DNA from: Nitrosarchaeum koreense MY1
GTDB taxonomy: Archaea; Thermoproteota; Nitrososphaeria; Nitrososphaerales; Nitrosopumilaceae
NCBI RefSeq assembly: GCF_000220175.1
Contig: NZ_AFPU01000001.1
Span: 1,151,512-1,215,511 of the forward strand
Length of the DNA: 64,000 bases
Direction of reading: 5' to 3'
Below are positions 16,222 to 46,469 of the stretch, in pieces (the first letter of the stretch is position 1; every line of letters begins with the position of its first letter). The position numbers and the translations under genes are program-made. Below the pieces are notes generated by a model that saw nothing but the letters and a program-made list of their open reading frames with translations, was not told where the DNA came from and searched no databases.

Positions 16222-17367
16222 CTATGCTACGCCTAGGTCACCGAATGTTTTTAGATTTAGCCCATCAGAGTTTGTTAATTTTGCAACTCTGTGTCCAATA
16301 ACACATTGAATTCCAGCGTTTTTGGCGCCTTCTAAAAGCCTCTGTGTGATAATACCATCCAATAGAAGGTATTTGATGCCAGATTGTGTTGAGAGTTTGC
16401 TAACTACTTCACTGATTGGAACTTTGAAAATTTCTTTTTCATTCTCGTCTAATGCTACAGCCTCTAGTGTCTCATTTAGATTTGGAAAAATTCTTGATGC
16501 TATTTCAGCTACAGGTTTATCATCTGAGCTTTTCAAAACAGCTACAGGTTTTCCATGTTTAATTTCATCAGCAATTGGTCTTAGAATCTCATCTATTCTT
16601 TGTGGAGTTAGTTCTTCAACTTCTACTCCAGTATCTGCTCTTAACTCATAATCAATCTTTACAACAGATGTTAGTTCTTTTAGAATAAAACCACCAGCTC
16701 GATCTCCATCAATAAATGCAACTACGGTATCTTTTGAAGCACATAGCTCTTTAATTGATTCATCAATTTTTGCACCTTCTATTGCAATTGCATTATCATA
16801 ACCAGCTCTTAGAAGATTAATGACATCAGCCCTGCCTTCGACTAAAATTATCCATTTAGAATCAAACACTCCAGAACTACATGTTAATTTAGATGGACCA
16901 TAAGTTGATAGTCTTTTAGAATCACCTTCATGAACATCTTTTAACATACTTTCTCCTTCACTAACTGTTTTTGTAGCCCAACGTTGTTTGATTTCTTTAG
17001 CACGTCTTACAATGTCATCTTTTTTTGCTGCTCTTACATCATCGATTGCTTCTAATTTGAAGACACAGTCAAATGGACCAACTTTATCAATGCTTTCAAT
17101 TCCTGCTGCAATTAATGCGCAAGTATCAATATCAGTACTCATTGGAATAAGAGCATCACCGTTTGTAGTATTAGAAGTAGACTTTGTGTTTACTTCTATA
17201 CGACCTACTTTAGAAACTCGTTGTAGTTCGTTCAGATTCATCTCTGGGCCTAGTAATCCTTCGGTTTGACCGAAGATAGCCCCGATTATATCTGCTCGTT
17301 CAACAAGTCCGTCAACTTCAAAGGAAAGTTTAACATGATATTTGACAATTCCTGATTTATTGGACAT
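16222..17367 (-). CDS. dnaG: DnaG-like primase, archaeal Toprim protein
   Basis: A 381-residue archaeal DnaG with a central Toprim domain: WIILVEGRADVINLLRAG (about 168-185) with the catalytic Glu, AIEGAKI, and DTVVAFIDGDRAGGFI (about 210-225) with the DxD motif. In archaea DnaG makes RNA primers in vitro and associates with the RNA exosome. The N-terminal GQTEGLLGPEMNLNEL segment is the conserved archaeal opening. The start is ATG 17367. ribK follows 9 nt downstream. Confidence 0.92.
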   Translation of the reverse strand: MSNKSGIVKYHVKLSFEVDGLVERADIIGAIFGQTEGLLGPEMNLNELQRVSKVGRIEVNTKSTSNTTNGDALIPMSTDIDTCALIAAGIESIDKVGPFDCVFKLEAIDDVRAAKKDDIVRRAKEIKQRWATKTVSEGESMLKDVHEGDSKRLSTYGPSKLTCSSGVFDSKWIILVEGRADVINLLRAGYDNAIAIEGAKIDESIKELCASKDTVVAFIDGDRAGGFILKELTSVVKIDYELRADTGVEVEELTPQRIDEILRPIADEIKHGKPVAVLKSSDDKPVAEIASRIFPNLNETLEAVALDENEKEIFKVPISEVVSKLSTQSGIKYLLLDGIITQRLLEGAKNAGIQCVIGHRVAKLTNSDGLNLKTFGDLGVA

Positions 17368-33427: not shown

Positions 33428-33542
33428 GCCGGGGTAGCTCAGCCTGGTTAGAGTGCCAGTTGATTGGTAAACTCTACCGGTTCTTCCAAAAAAGGCAATA
33501 CTCATAATCTGGAGGTCGTGGGTTCGAAACCCATCCCCGGCA
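33428..33542 (+). tRNA. tRNA-Met (anticodon CAU) with a 40-nt intron
   Basis: Acceptor strands GCCGGGG and CCCCGGC, D arm GCTC/GAGT, variable AGGTC and T arm GTGGG-TTCGAAA-CCCAT fold normally. The anticodon arm is interrupted: the 5' strand CCAG (33456-33459) is followed by about 40 extra nucleotides, and the arm resumes at A33500 with loop CTCATAA and strand TCTGG. The mature anticodon is CAU (33503-33505). The intron lies at 30/31 or shifted by 1-2 nt, not at the canonical 37/38. G1-C72 argues for an elongator rather than an initiator; tRNA-Ile2 (CAU with modified C34) is the alternative. CCA is not encoded. Confidence 0.87.
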
Positions 33543-40821: not shown

Positions 40822-40963
40822 GATAGATAAAAGTGACACAAAAAGGCGTGATTTTAATTATTTAGTTTCAATAACCTTTGAGATTGTTTTGTTCAGCTGT
40901 AACTGTGAAAATACAGCTAAATTTGTTACCTGAACTAATGAATAACCAAAACATAACATAGAC

Positions 40964-41101
40964 ATGGAAAAATGCCCAAAGTGTTCAAACCAAATTATTG
41001 TTAGCAACACAAACGTAGCAGTAAATGTAGAACAACCATGGAAAAAAGTTCAAGCAAAAATTTGCCTAGATTGTAACTTTATGGAGTTATTCCGCAATTG
41101 A
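40964..41101 (+). CDS. Small zinc-ribbon protein (45 aa)
   Basis: Has two CxxC pairs, CPKC (residues 4-7) and CLDC (34-37), separated by a basic/hydrophobic hairpin, a typical rubredoxin-like zinc ribbon. No other domain is present. Its stop overlaps the TTG start of the next gene (TTGA), suggesting cotranslation. Function unknown; similar very small zinc ribbons occur throughout this region. Confidence 0.65.
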   Translation: MEKCPKCSNQIIVSNTNVAVNVEQPWKKVQAKICLDCNFMELFRN

Positions 41102-41544
41102 CTTTTTATGAGCAAAATGCAATGAGAAATGAAATGAAAATGATTTCTCATCTTGATAAGACAAGTTATCTAAACTTGTGCAAATCTATCTTGCGTTTGG
41201 ATCAGAATGTCTTATTTGTTGGAATAATCAATGACCACGGAAGATTGGTTGACTTTGCCAAAAAGCAAAACAAGATGATACAAAATCTAGAAAACATAGA
41301 TTTGGATATGATATGTATGCAAGCCAGGCTATACATATCAATGCAAAGCGATCACGATAAGAATCTTGGCAGATTTGGTCATTGCATCACCGAAAGAGAG
41401 AAAATCACAACGCTAACAATTCCCACCATTTATGGAACTGTGCTTGTCATATCTTCCAACAAGACAGATTCAAAAGAATTGGTAAAAAAAATTTTTCGGG
41501 TGACAGACGATAGTTGTTTTGCACAGATGCTAGACCCTTGTTGA
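41098..41544 (+). CDS. Conserved thaumarchaeal-type protein, possibly Roadblock-like fold
   Basis: A 148-residue protein with CKSILRLDQNVLFVGIINDHGRLVDFAKKQ (about 27-56) and TIPTIYGTVLVISSNK (about 111-126) in an alpha/beta pattern. The smaller protein at 49620 shows the same order of elements, so they appear to be members of one family. This pattern is frequent in Nitrosopumilus-type genomes as I recall; the function is not known. The start may be TTG 41098 (overlapping the zinc-ribbon gene) or the ATG eight codons later at 41122. Confidence 0.6.
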   Translation: MTFYEQNAMRNEMKMISHLDKTSYLNLCKSILRLDQNVLFVGIINDHGRLVDFAKKQNKMIQNLENIDLDMICMQARLYISMQSDHDKNLGRFGHCITEREKITTLTIPTIYGTVLVISSNKTDSKELVKKIFRVTDDSCFAQMLDPC

Positions 41545-41581: not shown

Positions 41582-42388
41582 ATGGGAAATAACTACAAGA
41601 GTGCAAGTAGTGACTTTCTGGATCTTGCAAGCGAGCAGCGACTTGATATTTTGTTTCACTTGATGCAAGAAAAATCAAAAGTGTCCCCAATGGCAAAGAC
41701 ACTTGATTCTACCGTACAGGAAGTCCACAGAAACTTTGAGAGATTGGCAAAATCAGGATTTATTGAAAAAGATAATGAGGGTTACTATCATCTTACAATT
41801 TATGGAACTACAATGTGCACTCAGATTCCTACAATGATGTTTTTCTCAAATAATAGAAAGTATTTCCAGGAACATGACTTTGGAGATCTTCCTGTAAAAT
41901 TTATCGAACGTATAGGTGCACTGTCAACTGGAACTTACATCAAGGGTTTTACCAAAGTGATCGAACAGTGGAAATCAATTTACAAAAACGCTAACGAATA
42001 CATCTATGAAATGCATTCAGAGGTTTCAAATGATCTTATAGAACCTTTGATAAAAAAAGCTAAAGATGATAAAGTAAAGATAAACTACATTTTGTCAGAA
42101 GATTGTATCGTTCCAAGGGGAAGAAAAAAGACGTTGGAGAAATTTGGTTTTAGTAGTCTCTTAGAAAATGGAATAGTTGAAAGAAAAATGTCAAAACAAG
42201 TTTTGGTAGTAGTTGCCTTAAATGAAAAAGAGGCATGTGTCTCATTTCCTGACAGAAAAGGTGAATCAAACATCGGGTATGCGTTTTATGGAAACGATGT
42301 TAGATTTCATGAGTGGTGTCTTGACTATTTCAGATATAGTTGGCACAATTCAGGTACATTCAGGGAAAGCAAACTAAAAGAAGAATAG
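41582..42388 (+). CDS. FilR1-type HTH transcriptional regulator
   Basis: A 268-residue archaeal regulator. Residues about 12-75 are a winged helix (SEQRLDILFHLMQEK, MAKTLDSTVQEVHRNFERLAKSGFIEKD). The remaining part matches the archaeal FilR1/DUF1724 sensor domain pattern, including IYEMHSEVSNDLIEPLIKKA and an RKMSKQVLVVVALNEKEACVSFPD strand pair with a final GNDVRFHEWCLDYFRYSW. Regulators of this kind act in filament and methanogenesis control in other archaea. Its target may be the small-gene cluster next to it; that is inference. Confidence 0.72.
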   Translation: MGNNYKSASSDFLDLASEQRLDILFHLMQEKSKVSPMAKTLDSTVQEVHRNFERLAKSGFIEKDNEGYYHLTIYGTTMCTQIPTMMFFSNNRKYFQEHDFGDLPVKFIERIGALSTGTYIKGFTKVIEQWKSIYKNANEYIYEMHSEVSNDLIEPLIKKAKDDKVKINYILSEDCIVPRGRKKTLEKFGFSSLLENGIVERKMSKQVLVVVALNEKEACVSFPDRKGESNIGYAFYGNDVRFHEWCLDYFRYSWHNSGTFRESKLKEE

Positions 42389-42390
42389 AT

Positions 42391-42531
42391 TCACTCCAGT
42401 GGAAAATCTGATCCACATCCAAGGCACCATCCTCGTTCTCCTTTGTAACTATCACTATAATATTGAATGATTTCAATTCCACACACAAAACATGTTGTCT
42501 CCACAGTTCTCTTTTTTACATTTTTTATCAT
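42391..42531 (-). CDS. Small zinc-ribbon protein (46 aa)
   Basis: Contains CFVCG (residues 14-18) and CLGCG (36-40), a two-knuckle zinc ribbon, with an intervening IEIIQYYSDSYKGERGW. It starts at ATG 42531 and ends 2 nt from the convergent FilR1-like gene. It is the third gene of a minus-strand row beginning at 42884, after a one-helix membrane protein and another small membrane protein. No family is recognised beyond the zinc ribbon. Confidence 0.65.
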   Translation of the reverse strand: MIKNVKKRTVETTCFVCGIEIIQYYSDSYKGERGWCLGCGSDFPLE

Positions 42532-42580
42532 TGATTCTGTTTTTTGATGATTGTGAGTTTTGTGAGACAATTATTCTTCC

Positions 42581-42715
42581 TCACAACATGATGGTGAGTA
42601 AAATAATTGAAACCACTGCAACTATGTGAAATAAATAATAAGATGTTTTGTGCCTTGGCATTCTTTTCAGACTTTGTCTTTTCTTATGTTTTATTTCCTG
42701 TACTAAATCGATCAT
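42581..42715 (-). CDS. Small one-helix membrane protein (44 aa)
   Basis: A basic N-terminal half (EIKHKKRQSLKRMPRHK, residues 7-23) is followed by one hydrophobic helix (about 26-43, YYLFHIVAVVSIILLTIM). It begins 4 nt after the stop of the paralogous gene at 42720, so it is almost certainly cotranscribed with it. Its coding signal is supported by that spacing and by the clean membrane pattern. Function unknown. Confidence 0.6.
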   Translation of the reverse strand: MIDLVQEIKHKKRQSLKRMPRHKTSYYLFHIVAVVSIILLTIML

Positions 42716-42719
42716 TTTT

Positions 42720-42884
42720 TCATACTCCTGGCATTTCTAGCACGATAAATGCCCCCAATCCAATCCCAATCACTACACCAATTCCAGTGCAGATAAGACC
42801 GAATTTTACAACCTTTTTGATTGGAGCATGTACCATCATGTCCCAAGTGCTGATTGATTTTTGTGTTTGAATATTGTTGTTCAT
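42720..42884 (-). CDS. Small membrane protein, paralogue family member A (54 aa)
   Basis: Polar N-terminus with STWDMMVHAPIKKVVKFGL (residues 12-30), then a glycine-zipper helix ICTGIGVVIGIGLGAFIVL (31-49). Proteins B (43432) and C (43777) share the W-x3-VHxPxxKVV-x3-L core and the glycine-rich helix at the same spacing. It heads a row of minus-strand small genes. The 52 nt starting 20 nt upstream of its ATG are about 85% identical to those upstream of member C. No known family is recognised. Confidence 0.72.
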   Translation of the reverse strand: MNNNIQTQKSISTWDMMVHAPIKKVVKFGLICTGIGVVIGIGLGAFIVLEMPGV

Positions 42885-42903
42885 ATTATGTAATACACAC
42901 TGC

Positions 42904-42955
42904 TTAATGATAGACTGTACTCATCAAATGTTATGATGATTAAGCTGTATCTGTT
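42904..42955 (-). promoter_or_regulatory. Shared upstream element of the small-gene operons, copy A
   Basis: This 52-nt block begins 20 nt before the ATG of member A. It matches 43955-44006 (upstream of member C) at roughly 85% of positions. On the minus strand it contains CTATCATTAA, which could include the TATA box, and an ATCATCATAACATTTG block. Conservation outside the coding sequence suggests a common promoter or operator, or a recent duplication of gene plus promoter. Confidence 0.6.
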
Positions 42956-43097
42956 AATTTACAAGATTACATTGTAATATACAACATGCTAATTTTCAAA
43001 AAAAATGTTGGGATAAATAGGAAATTTTGACAGATTTCTAACTATTTGCTATGATGATAGAAACTTTTAATCAAAAATATATCTGATTAATGTCGAT

Positions 43098-43271
43098 TTA
43101 CCCTTTTATTGTTTTTTTGTGGAATGTTCTAACATATTTTTTTCTTGTTTTGGTAGGATTCCTGTTTACAAATGTCTTAAAACCATTTGTAACTATTCCA
43201 CAGGCAACACACAATATTTCTCGTGTACTTGTGTCATGCACAGTATTTTTGTGATTGCATCTTGGATTCAT
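43098..43271 (-). CDS. Stand-alone TFB/TFIIB-like zinc-ribbon protein (57 aa)
   Basis: Residues 5-26 read CNHKNTVHDTSTREILCVAC followed by GIV, which follows the transcription factor B zinc-ribbon pattern (ligand pair, VHD, then ExxCxxCGxV), with the first pair as C-x-H. The rest (FKTFVNRNPTKTRKKYVRTFHKK) is strongly basic and would bind nucleic acid. The cyclin folds of TFB are absent, so it is not a full general factor. Start ATG 43271, TAA at 43098-43100. It lies inside the small-gene cluster. Confidence 0.65.
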   Translation of the reverse strand: MNPRCNHKNTVHDTSTREILCVACGIVTNGFKTFVNRNPTKTRKKYVRTFHKKTIKG

Positions 43272-43298
43272 TTTCATTATTCCTAATGCTCACCAAGA

Positions 43299-43348
43299 TT
43301 AATGATAGTTAGTATCAAAAACAGCTGTATCATCATAAATTCAGCTTA
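43299..43348 (-). promoter_or_regulatory. Shared upstream element, diverged copy
   Basis: It begins 28 nt before the ATG of the TFB-like gene and shares TTAATGATAG and CAGCTGTATC with the other two copies, with a different middle. It also lies upstream of paralogue B on the other strand, so it could act in both directions. Weaker than the A/C match. Confidence 0.4.
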
Positions 43349-43431
43349 GAGCGGTATCTCATTCAAATTGTCTCATTAGTGATGGTCTGAATACGCTAAC
43401 TATAATACACAACATATTCTGAATACAGATT

Positions 43432-43581
43432 ATGCCTGATGAGATTAAAAAAGAAAGTTCGTGGGATAAAATGGTTCATGCATCTTTTAGAAAAGTGGTT
43501 GCATTTGATCTATTATGTATCGGAATTGGCATTGTTATAGGAATAGGAATAGGCGTTTACCTAATTGCTGGTTCCCCTTAG
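43432..43581 (+). CDS. Small membrane protein, paralogue family member B (49 aa)
   Basis: MPDEIKKESSWDKMVHASFRKVV (residues 1-23 in sequence) precedes the helix LLCIGIGIVIGIGIGVYLIA. The W, MVHA, KVV and GIG-IGIG pattern aligns with member A without gaps. It is on the plus strand, opposite to A and C. ATG 43432 to TAG 43581. Function unknown; the glycine zipper suggests helix packing in the membrane. Confidence 0.72.
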   Translation: MPDEIKKESSWDKMVHASFRKVVAFDLLCIGIGIVIGIGIGVYLIAGSP

Positions 43582-43663
43582 TCTTTTTATTATTTACTTG
43601 TGATGGCATAATTCATTTGTTATTCACTAAGTTCTAAAGACCATTTTAACATGTAAAAAATGA

Positions 43664-43765
43664 TCAAATGTCAAGCTTGCAACTCTTTGAGCAATAGTCA
43701 TACTGCGTACTACTTGACACATCAGAGCTATGAAACCTTCCACACATGATGCAAATCTTTTTCAT
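43664..43765 (-). CDS. Very small zinc-finger protein (33 aa)
   Basis: Contains CIMCG (residues 5-9) and YCSKSCKLDI at the C-terminus, the two halves of a treble-clef-like finger also seen in the 54-residue protein at 50104 (FCSQGC). It begins 11 nt after the stop of paralogue C, so it is probably in its operon, just as paralogue A is followed by small genes. A 29-codon plus-strand frame over the same bases is less convincing. Confidence 0.55.
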   Translation of the reverse strand: MKKICIMCGRFHSSDVSSSTQYDYCSKSCKLDI

Positions 43766-43776
43766 GATTCTCATGT

Positions 43777-43935
43777 TCATACTCCAATTACCTTTCCGTA
43801 AACTAAAACTTCGAACCCAATCCAGATTATTGCTCCAATCCCCAACAAAAAAAGATCATGTTTCACCACTTTTTTGAACGGTACATGAATCAGTGTGCTC
43901 CATGGGCTGGCAAATTTTTCTACATTATTATTCAT
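43777..43935 (-). CDS. Small membrane protein, paralogue family member C (52 aa)
   Basis: ASPWSTLIHVPFKKVVKHDL (residues 9-28) aligns with members A and B, followed by a helix FLLGIGAIIWIGFEVLVYG in which some helix glycines are replaced. Both A and C begin MNNN and end with an -I/P-GV tail, showing recent common origin. It is divergent from the gene at 44044, with the shared upstream element between them. Confidence 0.72.
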   Translation of the reverse strand: MNNNVEKFASPWSTLIHVPFKKVVKHDLFLLGIGAIIWIGFEVLVYGKVIGV

Positions 43936-43954
43936 ACAATACATTATGTAATTC

Positions 43955-44006
43955 TTAATGATAGATGATACTCAACAAATGTTATGATGAATCAGCTGAA
44001 TCTGTT
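43955..44006 (-). promoter_or_regulatory. Shared upstream element of the small-gene operons, copy C
   Basis: Begins 20 nt before the ATG of member C, exactly the distance seen for member A, and is about 85% identical to 42904-42955. It also lies within the 108-nt divergent region before the gene at 44044, so it may control both directions. Confidence 0.6.
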
Positions 44007-44043: not shown

Positions 44044-44430
44044 ATGCAAGCAATACAAAATAATCAAGATTTTTTACGAAGATACGGATATTCAGATAAC
44101 ATAAAAGTAGAAAAGGCAATAGAATTACTTTTGATTAATAGACGTCACGAATTAAGAACCATAGCAGAGTCAGTGTTAAACCACATACCTGGACAAATCA
44201 TTTTATCTGAATGGAGTGAGTTTATTCTTCACATGTGTCTTGATGTAGAAGAATGTTTTTCCATATGGAAAGGCGATGTAGAGCCACCTCAAAATTTCTA
44301 TCTCAAGTCATTTATAATATTAAAACAATTTAGTAAAGGAAAAACATCGATGAATCAATTAACTCAATTTTTGAATTTGGCTTATAGTATTGCCCAAGAA
44401 TTTAGAGTGATTTACAAAAGAGTGGAATAA
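44044..44430 (+). CDS. Hypothetical protein, mostly helical (128 aa)
   Basis: No family is recognised. It is predicted to be all-helical and soluble, with FLRRYGYSDNIKVEKAIELLL near the N-terminus and a short acidic CLDVEECFSIWKGDVEPPQ stretch (about 63-81). The ATG start is 108 nt from the divergent paralogue C gene, with the shared element between them. Codon use looks like the neighbours. It may be regulatory or structural; nothing decides this. Confidence 0.6.
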   Translation: MQAIQNNQDFLRRYGYSDNIKVEKAIELLLINRRHELRTIAESVLNHIPGQIILSEWSEFILHMCLDVEECFSIWKGDVEPPQNFYLKSFIILKQFSKGKTSMNQLTQFLNLAYSIAQEFRVIYKRVE

Positions 44431-44457
44431 AGATGAATCCTATCAATCCTTCAATCC

Positions 44458-44483
44458 TAGATTCAGCGCCGTAGGGACTCACC
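44458..44483 (+). repeat. Short match to the left part of the 65-bp repeat
   Basis: TAGATTCAGCGCCGTAGGG resembles the left end of repeat copy 2 (TAGATTCAATTCCACAGGG), and both continue GACTC. About 21 of 26 positions match. It could be a third, decayed copy. Low confidence. Confidence 0.35.
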
Positions 44484-44588
44484 TAAGAGATTATTTTGAT
44501 GCTAGCGGCTTGGCTAGTAACATTATTTTTGTAATTACGATTAGAGATCAAAACACATTATTAATGAACAATGATTGCAGGATAACAC

Positions 44589-45122
44589 TTGACTGATGAA
44601 CAAAAAAAGAAGACAGAAACTATGTCATTTAGACTAGACAGTAATATTTTAGATAAGATTAGGAAAGAATCAGAATCTCAAGGAATAAGCTTGAATGTTT
44701 TAGCCAATAGGATTTTTTCAAGATATACAGAATGGGATATGTTTGAGCCTAAAGTAGGCATGGTACCAATTGCAAAACCAATTGTAAGTGCATTGTTTAA
44801 AAAATTAACTGAGAAAGAAACTGTTGAATTGGCAGAAAAAATTGGACATAGCATAGTATCAGATATTGCAACTTTTATGAAAGGAACTATGGATATTGAT
44901 TCGTTTGTATCATGGTTTGTAACAAGAATGAAGATTTCAGATTTTGAAATGAATCATACAGAAGAAAATAGAAAACATACCTATATCATAAAACATGATT
45001 TAGGATACAATTGGTCATTGTATCACAAAACAGTACTACAATTAATTTTCAATGATGTTTTAGAAAAAAAGATAGATTCTGAAATAAATGACAATATGAT
45101 GAAAATTGTATTTGAAAAATAA
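44589..45122 (+). CDS. Ribbon-helix-helix DNA-binding protein with unknown C-terminal domain
   Basis: A 177-residue protein. Residues about 10-45 follow the Arc/CopG ribbon-helix-helix pattern: TMSFRLDSNILDKIRKESESQGISLNVLANRIFSR with a beta strand then two helices. The remaining 130 residues are alpha/beta with no family that I recognise, ending in a KHTYIIKHDLGYNWSLYHKTV-type block. Start TTG 44589. It converges with the multicopper oxidase gene, stopping one base before that gene's end. A regulator of the oxidase is a reasonable guess. Confidence 0.7.
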   Translation: MTDEQKKKTETMSFRLDSNILDKIRKESESQGISLNVLANRIFSRYTEWDMFEPKVGMVPIAKPIVSALFKKLTEKETVELAEKIGHSIVSDIATFMKGTMDIDSFVSWFVTRMKISDFEMNHTEENRKHTYIIKHDLGYNWSLYHKTVLQLIFNDVLEKKIDSEINDNMMKIVFEK

Positions 45123-46469
45123 TCATACTGACTTTATTGTTCCAGTCATCCATGGATGAAGCATACAATAATAGTCATACAACCCAACATCAGCAAATTT
45201 TTGCTTAAATGTATCGCCTGGCATCATCATTCCAGAATCAAATAAATCGTCTTTACTTGTTACAGTATGAACCGATACGTCTTTGTTTGTCCACGAAATA
45301 GTATCTCCTGATTTTATCTGAGTTAGTTTAGGATAGTATGATTTATTGGATGTCTTTACAGCAGAGTCTTTTTCAATATCACAAATATTTGTCTCAATTA
45401 TTTCAGACTCAACTTGAATTTGAGCTAGAATATTATGTTGTTCATGTCCAGATGTAACTGTAGTTGTTTGCGTAATCTTTGCATCAGAATCTGCTTGTTG
45501 CAAATCAGTCAAGATTTGTTTTTGCCAATTCCACATATCAATTGATTTTGTTTTTGAAACATCTATCCCATCAATTGCATTTGTCGGTGGATTTTTTACA
45601 TCAAAGTATGCCATTGTGCCTCGCTCCTCAGGAGTTCCGTGTAAATGAAATAGATACCTTCCAGGCTCCTTCCATTTAGCCTCAAATATTGCAGCATTTC
45701 CAGGACTTACCTCCCATGTTTGAGTTTTAATTGGTTCATTTTCCCAAATACCAGATATTATAGTATCAAAGATTGTTCCATGAATATGAAATCCAAATGC
45801 AGGTATTGCACCCATGTCAATATAGTATAATCTAACTAACTCATTTGTAACTGCAGGTAATGGGTTAGACCAATATTGATCAGCGTATCCATTAAAGAAA
45901 ACATAATCTGGTGTCCACGTCTCTTGGTCTTCTAAATCATACTCTCCTTTGACTAGAACATATTCTCTGGCAGGTTCCACTCCTTCTTTTGGGTCTACAA
46001 TGAATGCACCATACAATCCATTTCTGATATGAGATGATACTGGCATTACATGGCAGTGATACATAAAAGCACCAGCTGGTTCTGCAATAAAGTCATAAGT
46101 GTATGATTCTCCTGGAAGAACTTCTTGAAATACGCCGTCATTTTTTTCATTATGATCACCATGAAAATGCATTGTATGCGGTAATTTTCCATTGTTGATA
46201 AAATTAATAATCACTCTGTCTCCCTCTGTTGCTCTTAATGTTGGACCAGGGATAGTTCCATTGTATGTCCAAGCTTCAACTCTAGTATCAGGAGCAATCT
46301 CAAGTGTAGTATCTTCAGCTATAACAGTATAGGTTCGTGTTATGGGAGAATTGTGGACAGATTGATTTTCTGCAAACGACTGTAATGGAGTATCCATTAC
46401 GAAAAAAACCATACCAAGGGCAACACCAAAGCATGCAACTACAATCATCATGGTAATAGTTCTGTCCAC
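45123..46469 (-). CDS. Two-domain multicopper oxidase with a fused C-terminal plastocyanin-like domain
   Basis: A 448-residue exported copper protein. An N-terminal helix (about 7-25) anchors or exports it. Cupredoxin domain 1 has PHTMHFHGDH (97-106) and MYHCHV (136-141), H147 and an axial Leu at 152. Domain 2 has FGFHIHG and YLFHLHG. Four HxH motifs fit a trinuclear copper cluster, which argues against a NirK-type reductase. Residues about 365-448 form a third cupredoxin with SVHTV and YYCMLHPWM (all four blue-copper ligands), an in-built electron donor. The substrate is unknown. Confidence 0.87.
   Translation of the reverse strand: MDRTITMMIVVACFGVALGMVFFVMDTPLQSFAENQSVHNSPITRTYTVIAEDTTLEIAPDTRVEAWTYNGTIPGPTLRATEGDRVIINFINNGKLPHTMHFHGDHNEKNDGVFQEVLPGESYTYDFIAEPAGAFMYHCHVMPVSSHIRNGLYGAFIVDPKEGVEPAREYVLVKGEYDLEDQETWTPDYVFFNGYADQYWSNPLPAVTNELVRLYYIDMGAIPAFGFHIHGTIFDTIISGIWENEPIKTQTWEVSPGNAAIFEAKWKEPGRYLFHLHGTPEERGTMAYFDVKNPPTNAIDGIDVSKTKSIDMWNWQKQILTDLQQADSDAKITQTTTVTSGHEQHNILAQIQVESEIIETNICDIEKDSAVKTSNKSYYPKLTQIKSGDTISWTNKDVSVHTVTSKDDLFDSGMMMPGDTFKQKFADVGLYDYYCMLHPWMTGTIKSV

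Follow-up and report, generated by a model that had tools for sequence, protein, structure and literature searches.

What do seven very small reading frames, crowded within 1.55 kb of the genome of Nitrosarchaeum koreense MY1, code for, and do they belong to a common system? The frames (A to G, positions 42391-43935) lie in a stretch of 64,000 nucleotides, hereafter called the window, and had been read in an earlier note, made from the sequence alone, as a membrane-linked regulatory or toxin-like system. All seven are present at these positions, and their layout is the one described in that note, with two operons on the minus strand (C-B-A and G-F) plus the single, divergent genes D and E (Table 1). 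The feature extends past this interval, because an operator, the TrmB-like regulator I, and the gene H are located at or outside its edges.

Table 1. Positions of the small genes, the H-L-I operon, and the putative regulatory elements in the window.
Feature	Position	Strand	Description
Operator AGCT-N16-AGCT	40895-40918		-69/-49 of the H start codon; promoter of H-L-I
H	40964-41101	+	45-aa zinc-ribbon-like protein; first gene of H-L-I; outside the interval of the earlier note
L	41098-41544	+	148 aa, DUF6659 type just under the Pfam cut-off; 4 bp overlap with H
I	41582-42388	+	268-aa winged-helix protein, predicted TrmB-like fold; candidate regulator of the set
A	42391-42570	-	Small zinc-ribbon protein with two CxxC pairs; 59 aa if started at TTG, 46 aa if at an internal ATG
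B	42581-42715	-	44-aa one-helix membrane protein, PRHKK family
C	42720-42884	-	GZ one-helix membrane protein, 54 aa; first gene of C-B-A; family-wide profile matches
C promoter element	42918-42946	-	One half site at -62 plus a 22-mer (TCATCATAACATTTGWTGAGTA) common to G
D	43098-43277	-	59 aa; resembles the zinc ribbon of TFIIB/TFB only
Operator AGCT-N16-AGCT	43323-43346		-69/-49 of D (in register); -109/-89 of E
E	43432-43581	+	GZ one-helix membrane protein, 49 aa; profile match; predicted helix 19-46
F	43664-43780	-	38 aa, cysteine-rich, probably zinc-binding
G	43777-43935	-	Divergent GZ member, 52 aa; W in place of one zipper glycine; profile match
G promoter element	43969-43997	-	One half site at -62 plus the same 22-mer as C

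The frames are kept in relatives. In the almost identical genome G007 all seven are intact (96-100% identity), and in the more distant Nitrosarchaeum sp. G002 the frames of A, B, C, D, E, and G have nearly equal lengths and share 55-93% amino-acid identity, while F is absent from the block. Broken frames in relatives had been named in the earlier note as the finding that would speak against these genes; six of the seven are open in G002, with no frameshift or internal stop. The dN/dS values, which stem from few relatives (comparison to G002), are 0.12 for B, 0.13 for E, 0.40 for C, 0.44 for A, 0.50 for G, and 0.60 for D, and for the neighbours 0.05 (H), 0.04 (I), and 0.17 (L). B and E are clearly under purifying selection; for A, C, D, and G the signal is weak or the data are short. 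C, E, and G are further backed by the conservation of their whole family, and A and B by distant homologues, those of A being found directly before I in Nitrosotalea-like and other loci. B, E, and C stand on firm footing as genes, and the footing of D, F, and G is weaker. D has no clear relative beyond the genus and was found only in G000, G007, and G002. It matches Pfam Zn_Ribbon_TF under the cut-off (E 6e-5) and, at 59 residues with a zinc ribbon and without the cyclin-fold core, is not a TFB. The only look-alike of F is a similar 31-aa protein after the H homologue of genome G142 (locus L258). Possibly, the working core is smaller (C, E, B, and A), and D, F, and G are local duplicates or genes in decay, as the dN/dS values of D and G, the altered C-terminus of D, the missing F in G002, and the lost zipper glycine of G could indicate. 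We are doubtful of this, because D retains its cysteines and has an in-register operator in its promoter, and the promoter element of G is nearly unchanged over G000, G007, and G002 despite the divergence of the gene.

The proposed kinship of C, E, and G was borne out, as a search with C retrieves E and G plus two further copies elsewhere in the genome. None of the three matches a Pfam family. They have in common the signature W-x3-[VI][HR]-A-[PS]-F-[KR]-[KR]-V followed by one glycine-rich helix, in which G deviates. A profile of this family, here called GZ, matched 47 of 397 genomes of the phylum at E<=0.01; strong matches are found in 40 genomes with 1-5 copies each, all of them Nitrosopumilaceae by matching of record names, and the matches elsewhere are marginal. 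Judged from these profile matches, GZ is an undescribed one-helix family of the Nitrosopumilaceae. AlphaFold2 predicts a short helix (residues 10-15) and a long one (19-46) with moderate confidence (pTM 0.43), this model being of the helix as a monomer only. Basic residues precede the helix and suggest, according to the positive-inside rule, a cytoplasmic N-terminus, with a net charge that is not positive in every copy. By its sequence, B is a member of a second one-helix family, in which a P-R-H-K-rich stretch precedes the helix. It has homologues in 18 of 27 genomes. All 25 B copies in the fetched loci, which had been selected by GZ or I, share their locus with GZ, mostly within 160 bp and either divergent or directly downstream; a whole-genome search revealed B copies apart from GZ, too. 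Proteins of both families would insert into the membrane N-in via their one helix. There they may join larger complexes of the membrane or envelope as accessory subunits or modulate them, and GZ would pack with its glycine face against the helix of a partner.

Some small membrane proteins depart from this common pattern. GZ copies of a subtype with the tail AMGMPIGAGIATAFLTGDIY (L117, L118, L120, and L121) are located just after an Hsp20 gene and are without the operator. In another subgroup (L114, L115, L147, L148, and L155), GZ is preceded by the ribosome-binding site GAGGTGA and a TTGATT...AATCAAC-like element replaces the AGCT sites; some of these copies adjoin genes of universal stress proteins. 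The Nitrosotalea-like loci L276 and L287 encode, 38 bp behind an N16 operator and divergent from an agmatinase-like gene, a protein of 37 aa with one helix (PHWMEIIAGVLIGTSLILISHK), which possibly represents a third mini-protein family.

Promoter elements tie these genes together. The pattern AGCT-N16-AGCT occurs at three places in the 64 kb, where about 0.5 would be expected by chance. Two of them lie in the promoter regions of H and D, the latter being out of register for E. The site before H is kept in G007, G002, and L174, in G002 despite changed sequence further upstream. C and G have only half sites within the window; the exact 22-mer next to these occurs twice in the window and never in shuffles, and the element of C is conserved in G007 and G002. 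The third place (16507-16550, with another AGCT nearby) is inside an ORF (16222-17367) and was taken as chance.

Across genomes, the consensus upstream of GZ is GGTMAGCT-N4-AGCTTACC, then a CTATNA box, and then the ATG. The operator exists in two forms, one with a TMAGCT-N4-AGCTTA core (GGTMAGCTNNNNAGCTTACC), whose half sites are mostly found at -69/-61 or -49/-41 in Nitrosopumilus and Nitrosarchaeum, and AGCT-N16-AGCT in Nitrosotalea/Nitrosotenuis-like genomes with half sites at -61/-41. Of 86 GZ upstream regions, 57 contain an operator of either form, compared to 14 of 616 control regions, where some of the 14 are the same site viewed from the divergent gene. About a third of the GZ upstream regions are without either form, and the Hsp20-adjacent GZ subgroup has a different leader. 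Exact TMAGCT-N4-AGCTTA sites number 43, in 19 of the 26 genomes searched, with 0.4 sites per genome expected from a first-order chance model. Of these sites, 35 are within 300 bp upstream of GZ (11 also near B) and 5 precede B alone, so that GZ or B follows within 300 bp downstream of 40 of the 43. As for the remaining three, one faces an H-F-like gene pair, one a universal stress protein, and one a membrane protein, across from which another universal stress protein is encoded. Six genomes that lack GZ contain no exact N4 site; there is also none in G020, which has GZ. For the N16 form, 35 sites were found in 14 genomes compared to 3 for the reversed pattern, a control that is not composition-matched, and where GZ follows such a site its ATG is almost always 36-37 bp past it. 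The final N16 pattern, with T before AGCT, was tuned on known GZ sites from aligned promoters; a pattern demanding A or C in this position missed most true sites. Since both forms were derived from inspected GZ promoters, the GZ counts are descriptive. The B-only sites provide an independent check, because they were not used to define the motif, and together with the H-L-I site and the GZ-less genomes they put the motif to tests it might not have passed. Like the GZ and B families, their conservation, and the linkage of the genes, the operator and its specificity can be read from the DNA itself. Its position upstream of the presumed BRE/TATA region suggests activation rather than repression.

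Which protein may read the operator? The candidate is I. Its N-terminal winged helix scores 27.7 bits against Pfam HVO_A0114 (cut-off 27.6), and homologues exceed the cut-off of HVO_A0261_N. The AlphaFold2 model (pLDDT 93.5) has TrmBL2 as best Foldseek match (5bpd, E 3e-10), followed by TrmB (E 7e-5) and, at E 7e-4, the TrmB sugar-binding domain; the predicted TrmB-like fold includes the C-terminal effector domain. We call I "TrmB-like" and not "TrmB", because its score against Pfam Regulator_TrmB (PF11495) is 14.9 bits and thus under the cut-off of 22.2. PADLOC reported for I a weak HTH-type similarity and nothing more. A paralogue of I, 57% identical to it, is located at 229,097 in this genome. 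I is the commonest neighbour of GZ (34 loci in 27 genomes), at distances of 9 bp to 1.5 kb and in several orientations. In the reverse search starting from I, GZ was found within 4 kb in 26 of 80 loci. Other families of the phylum sample have I without having GZ, and I is therefore probably the older partner. Homologues of H occur in L174, in L177, and behind the operator in L258.

Two side observations concern I and its relatives. In L244, L246, and L248, other I paralogues have an AGCT-N16-AGCT site in common with a divergent nucleotide-cyclase-like gene. Locus L174, filed under a Phycisphaerae bacterium MAG, carries thaumarchaeal genes, among them a 90% identical I, H, B, and a partial GZ, and these are probably binning contamination.

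The same operator stands before H-L-I in the window, before A-I in L250 and L251, and before B-MCO4a-hemerythrin-I in L258. Furthermore, it was found in 32 of the 34 GZ genomes that have a strong I and in one of the four that do not (p=0.005; like the other tests here, this one ignores shared ancestry), and the exception among the latter, G427, has a broken I. This co-occurrence and the gene linkage support I as the reader of the operator, although they are not proof. A different regulator might do the reading instead, for example the ribbon-helix-helix-like K (44589-45122) or a dedicated TFB, and I would then merely be a frequent target. K, too, recurs near GZ (nine loci in nine genomes), I is found where GZ is missing, and its binding to the operator is a prediction. 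Yet I is by far the commoner neighbour, and the operator tracks a strong I down to the broken gene of G427; we thus regard another reader as rather unlikely. If I is the reader, it would bind the AGCT-containing half sites that immediately precede the basal promoters of its targets, would probably act as an activator there, and would also regulate its own operon. Its targets would comprise the GZ and B families and small zinc-ribbon proteins (A, D, H, and others), and the cluster in the window would be one place of accumulation for a regulon found again and again in the Nitrosopumilaceae. Of the interpretation given in the earlier note, the membrane-linked regulatory system is thus strengthened by small membrane proteins with a common operator and by a conserved regulator gene next to them. 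The toxin-like part is not.

GZ proteins are small hydrophobic peptides with glycine-rich helices, they occur in several copies, and glycine-zipper proteins of bacteria can be toxins (PMC5380434). A role as toxin- or bacteriocin-like peptides is nevertheless very improbable in our opinion. The family is conserved throughout one archaeal family with several copies per genome, and its operator is common to metabolic and stress genes, including redox enzymes. No antitoxin-, immunity- or export-like gene is among the recurrent neighbours of GZ. This speaks against a glycine-zipper bacteriocin as well as against a type I toxin-antitoxin system, for which Rfam reported in the window tRNAs only (an unknown antisense RNA is conceivable). 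A toxin or mobile-element origin was also rejected after a scan of viral contigs with the GZ profile found no relative and a search of PHROGs returned none for GZ, B, and A.

The genes on the other side of the cluster were also inspected. J (128 aa) and K (177 aa, with a CopG/Arc-like N-terminus), together at 44044-45122, recur near GZ and B-MCO4a in other genomes. A multicopper oxidase (45123-46469) converges on K with a 1-bp junction; it is unlike MCO4a and has a C-terminal cupredoxin domain, and oxidases of its class are conserved beside K in other genomes. It was considered as a member of the regulon and rejected, because it lacks an upstream AGCT pair and is only ~40% identical to MCO4a. 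Against NCBIfam Cu_nitrite_red it scores 138.6 bits, below the cut-off of 296.3. Elsewhere in the window, a 115 bp tRNA (33428-33542, plus strand) called by Rfam and missed by ARAGORN probably contains an intron.

The function of the regulon may be approached through its larger members. Genes behind operator sites code for GZ, B, and zinc mini-proteins, and also for MCO4a, hemerythrin, universal stress proteins, a mechanosensitive-channel-like protein, DoxX, and a protein with an AsnC-type effector domain. In many Nitrosopumilus genomes, GZ is directly followed by a nitroreductase and then by I. Genome G142 with locus L258 is probably N. maritimus, and its hemerythrin-MCO4a neighbourhood matches the one described for this organism. 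According to a biofilm study (PMC12448741), MCO4a (Nmar_1354) and hemerythrin (Nmar_1353) are upregulated in biofilms of N. maritimus, and a nitroreductase family is up in biofilms of all three strains tested. MCO4a has been reported to produce HNO from hydroxylamine (cited through PMC12448741), and its induction was read by the authors of the biofilm study as a sign of nitrosative stress. The biofilm induction of MCO4a, hemerythrin, and nitroreductase favours a response to reactive nitrogen or redox stress, and a signal of this kind would then induce the regulon. MCO4a, hemerythrin, nitroreductase, universal stress proteins, the mechanosensitive-channel-like protein, and DoxX would be targets that depend on the genome. 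No publication on small membrane proteins of Nitrosopumilus, or on nirK together with universal stress proteins, turned up in searches of the literature.

The main rival is a regulon that answers envelope or osmotic stress, where GZ and B would stabilise the membrane or tune a channel and reactive nitrogen would be incidental. Operator linkage of the mechanosensitive-channel-like protein, DoxX, and several small membrane proteins fits this scenario, as does a phosphatase-like membrane protein on the divergent side of an operator. However, MCO4a and hemerythrin are the enzymes encoded behind the Nitrosopumilus operator, and the nitroreductase follows GZ, which is in better agreement with nitrogen and oxygen chemistry; we give the envelope a minor chance. 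On balance we consider it probable, but by no means certain, that the TrmB-like regulator I controls an AGCT-site regulon of membrane and zinc mini-proteins, which likely responds to reactive-nitrogen or redox stress. A bolder version is tentative: it proposes a dedicated reactive-nitrogen regulon of the Nitrosopumilaceae, in which the TrmB-like sensor governs MCO4a, hemerythrin, and nitroreductase, and GZ and B are membrane subunits or modulators of nitrogen oxidation.

Ammonia-oxidising archaea are abundant and genetically hard to manipulate, and targets are known for only a few of their regulators. In the present case, the analysis of sequence alone yields a candidate regulator, a well-defined operator, and a list of targets that includes enzymes handling nitrogen intermediates. 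It also adds two conserved families of membrane mini-proteins, whose size is such that standard annotation often drops them. The operator motif offers a route to more small genes that have been missed, and DNA binding, co-expression, and interaction partners become directly testable. A reactive-nitrogen regulon, if it exists, would make a part of archaeal ammonia oxidation that is poorly understood accessible through genetics.

Several known systems resemble parts of this arrangement. AcrZ, MgtS, KdpF, and CydX are small one-helix membrane regulators or subunits of bacteria that are co-expressed with larger systems. GZ and B are like them in size, in the single helix, and in the short tails. 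The DosR dormancy regulon of mycobacteria comprises universal stress proteins, Hsp20, and nitroreductases, and responds to NO and low oxygen. Its gene cast is similar, but its regulator is of a different type and mini-protein families are not its main targets, so that DosR serves as an analogy only. The Cdz bacteriocins of Caulobacter (PMC5380434) are short and have glycine-zipper helices as GZ does; they are exported surface-associated toxins, whereas GZ has no recurring export or immunity gene and the conservation of a core family. The MCO4a/hemerythrin group of N. maritimus biofilms, which the consulted passages of its published description present without mention of an operator, I, GZ, or B, is probably the same operon as B-MCO4a-hemerythrin-I of L258 (PMC12448741). 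Thaumarchaeota have been noted to possess TrmB proteins, without characterisation (PMC4158304). TrmB, TrmBL1, and TrmBL2 have the same two-domain arrangement as I, and TrmBL2 is the closest solved fold. The TM-score to full TrmBL2 is only ~0.43, and thus the orientation of the domains in I differs. I also differs from the TrmB family in its proposed targets, which are stress genes and mini-proteins rather than sugar genes.
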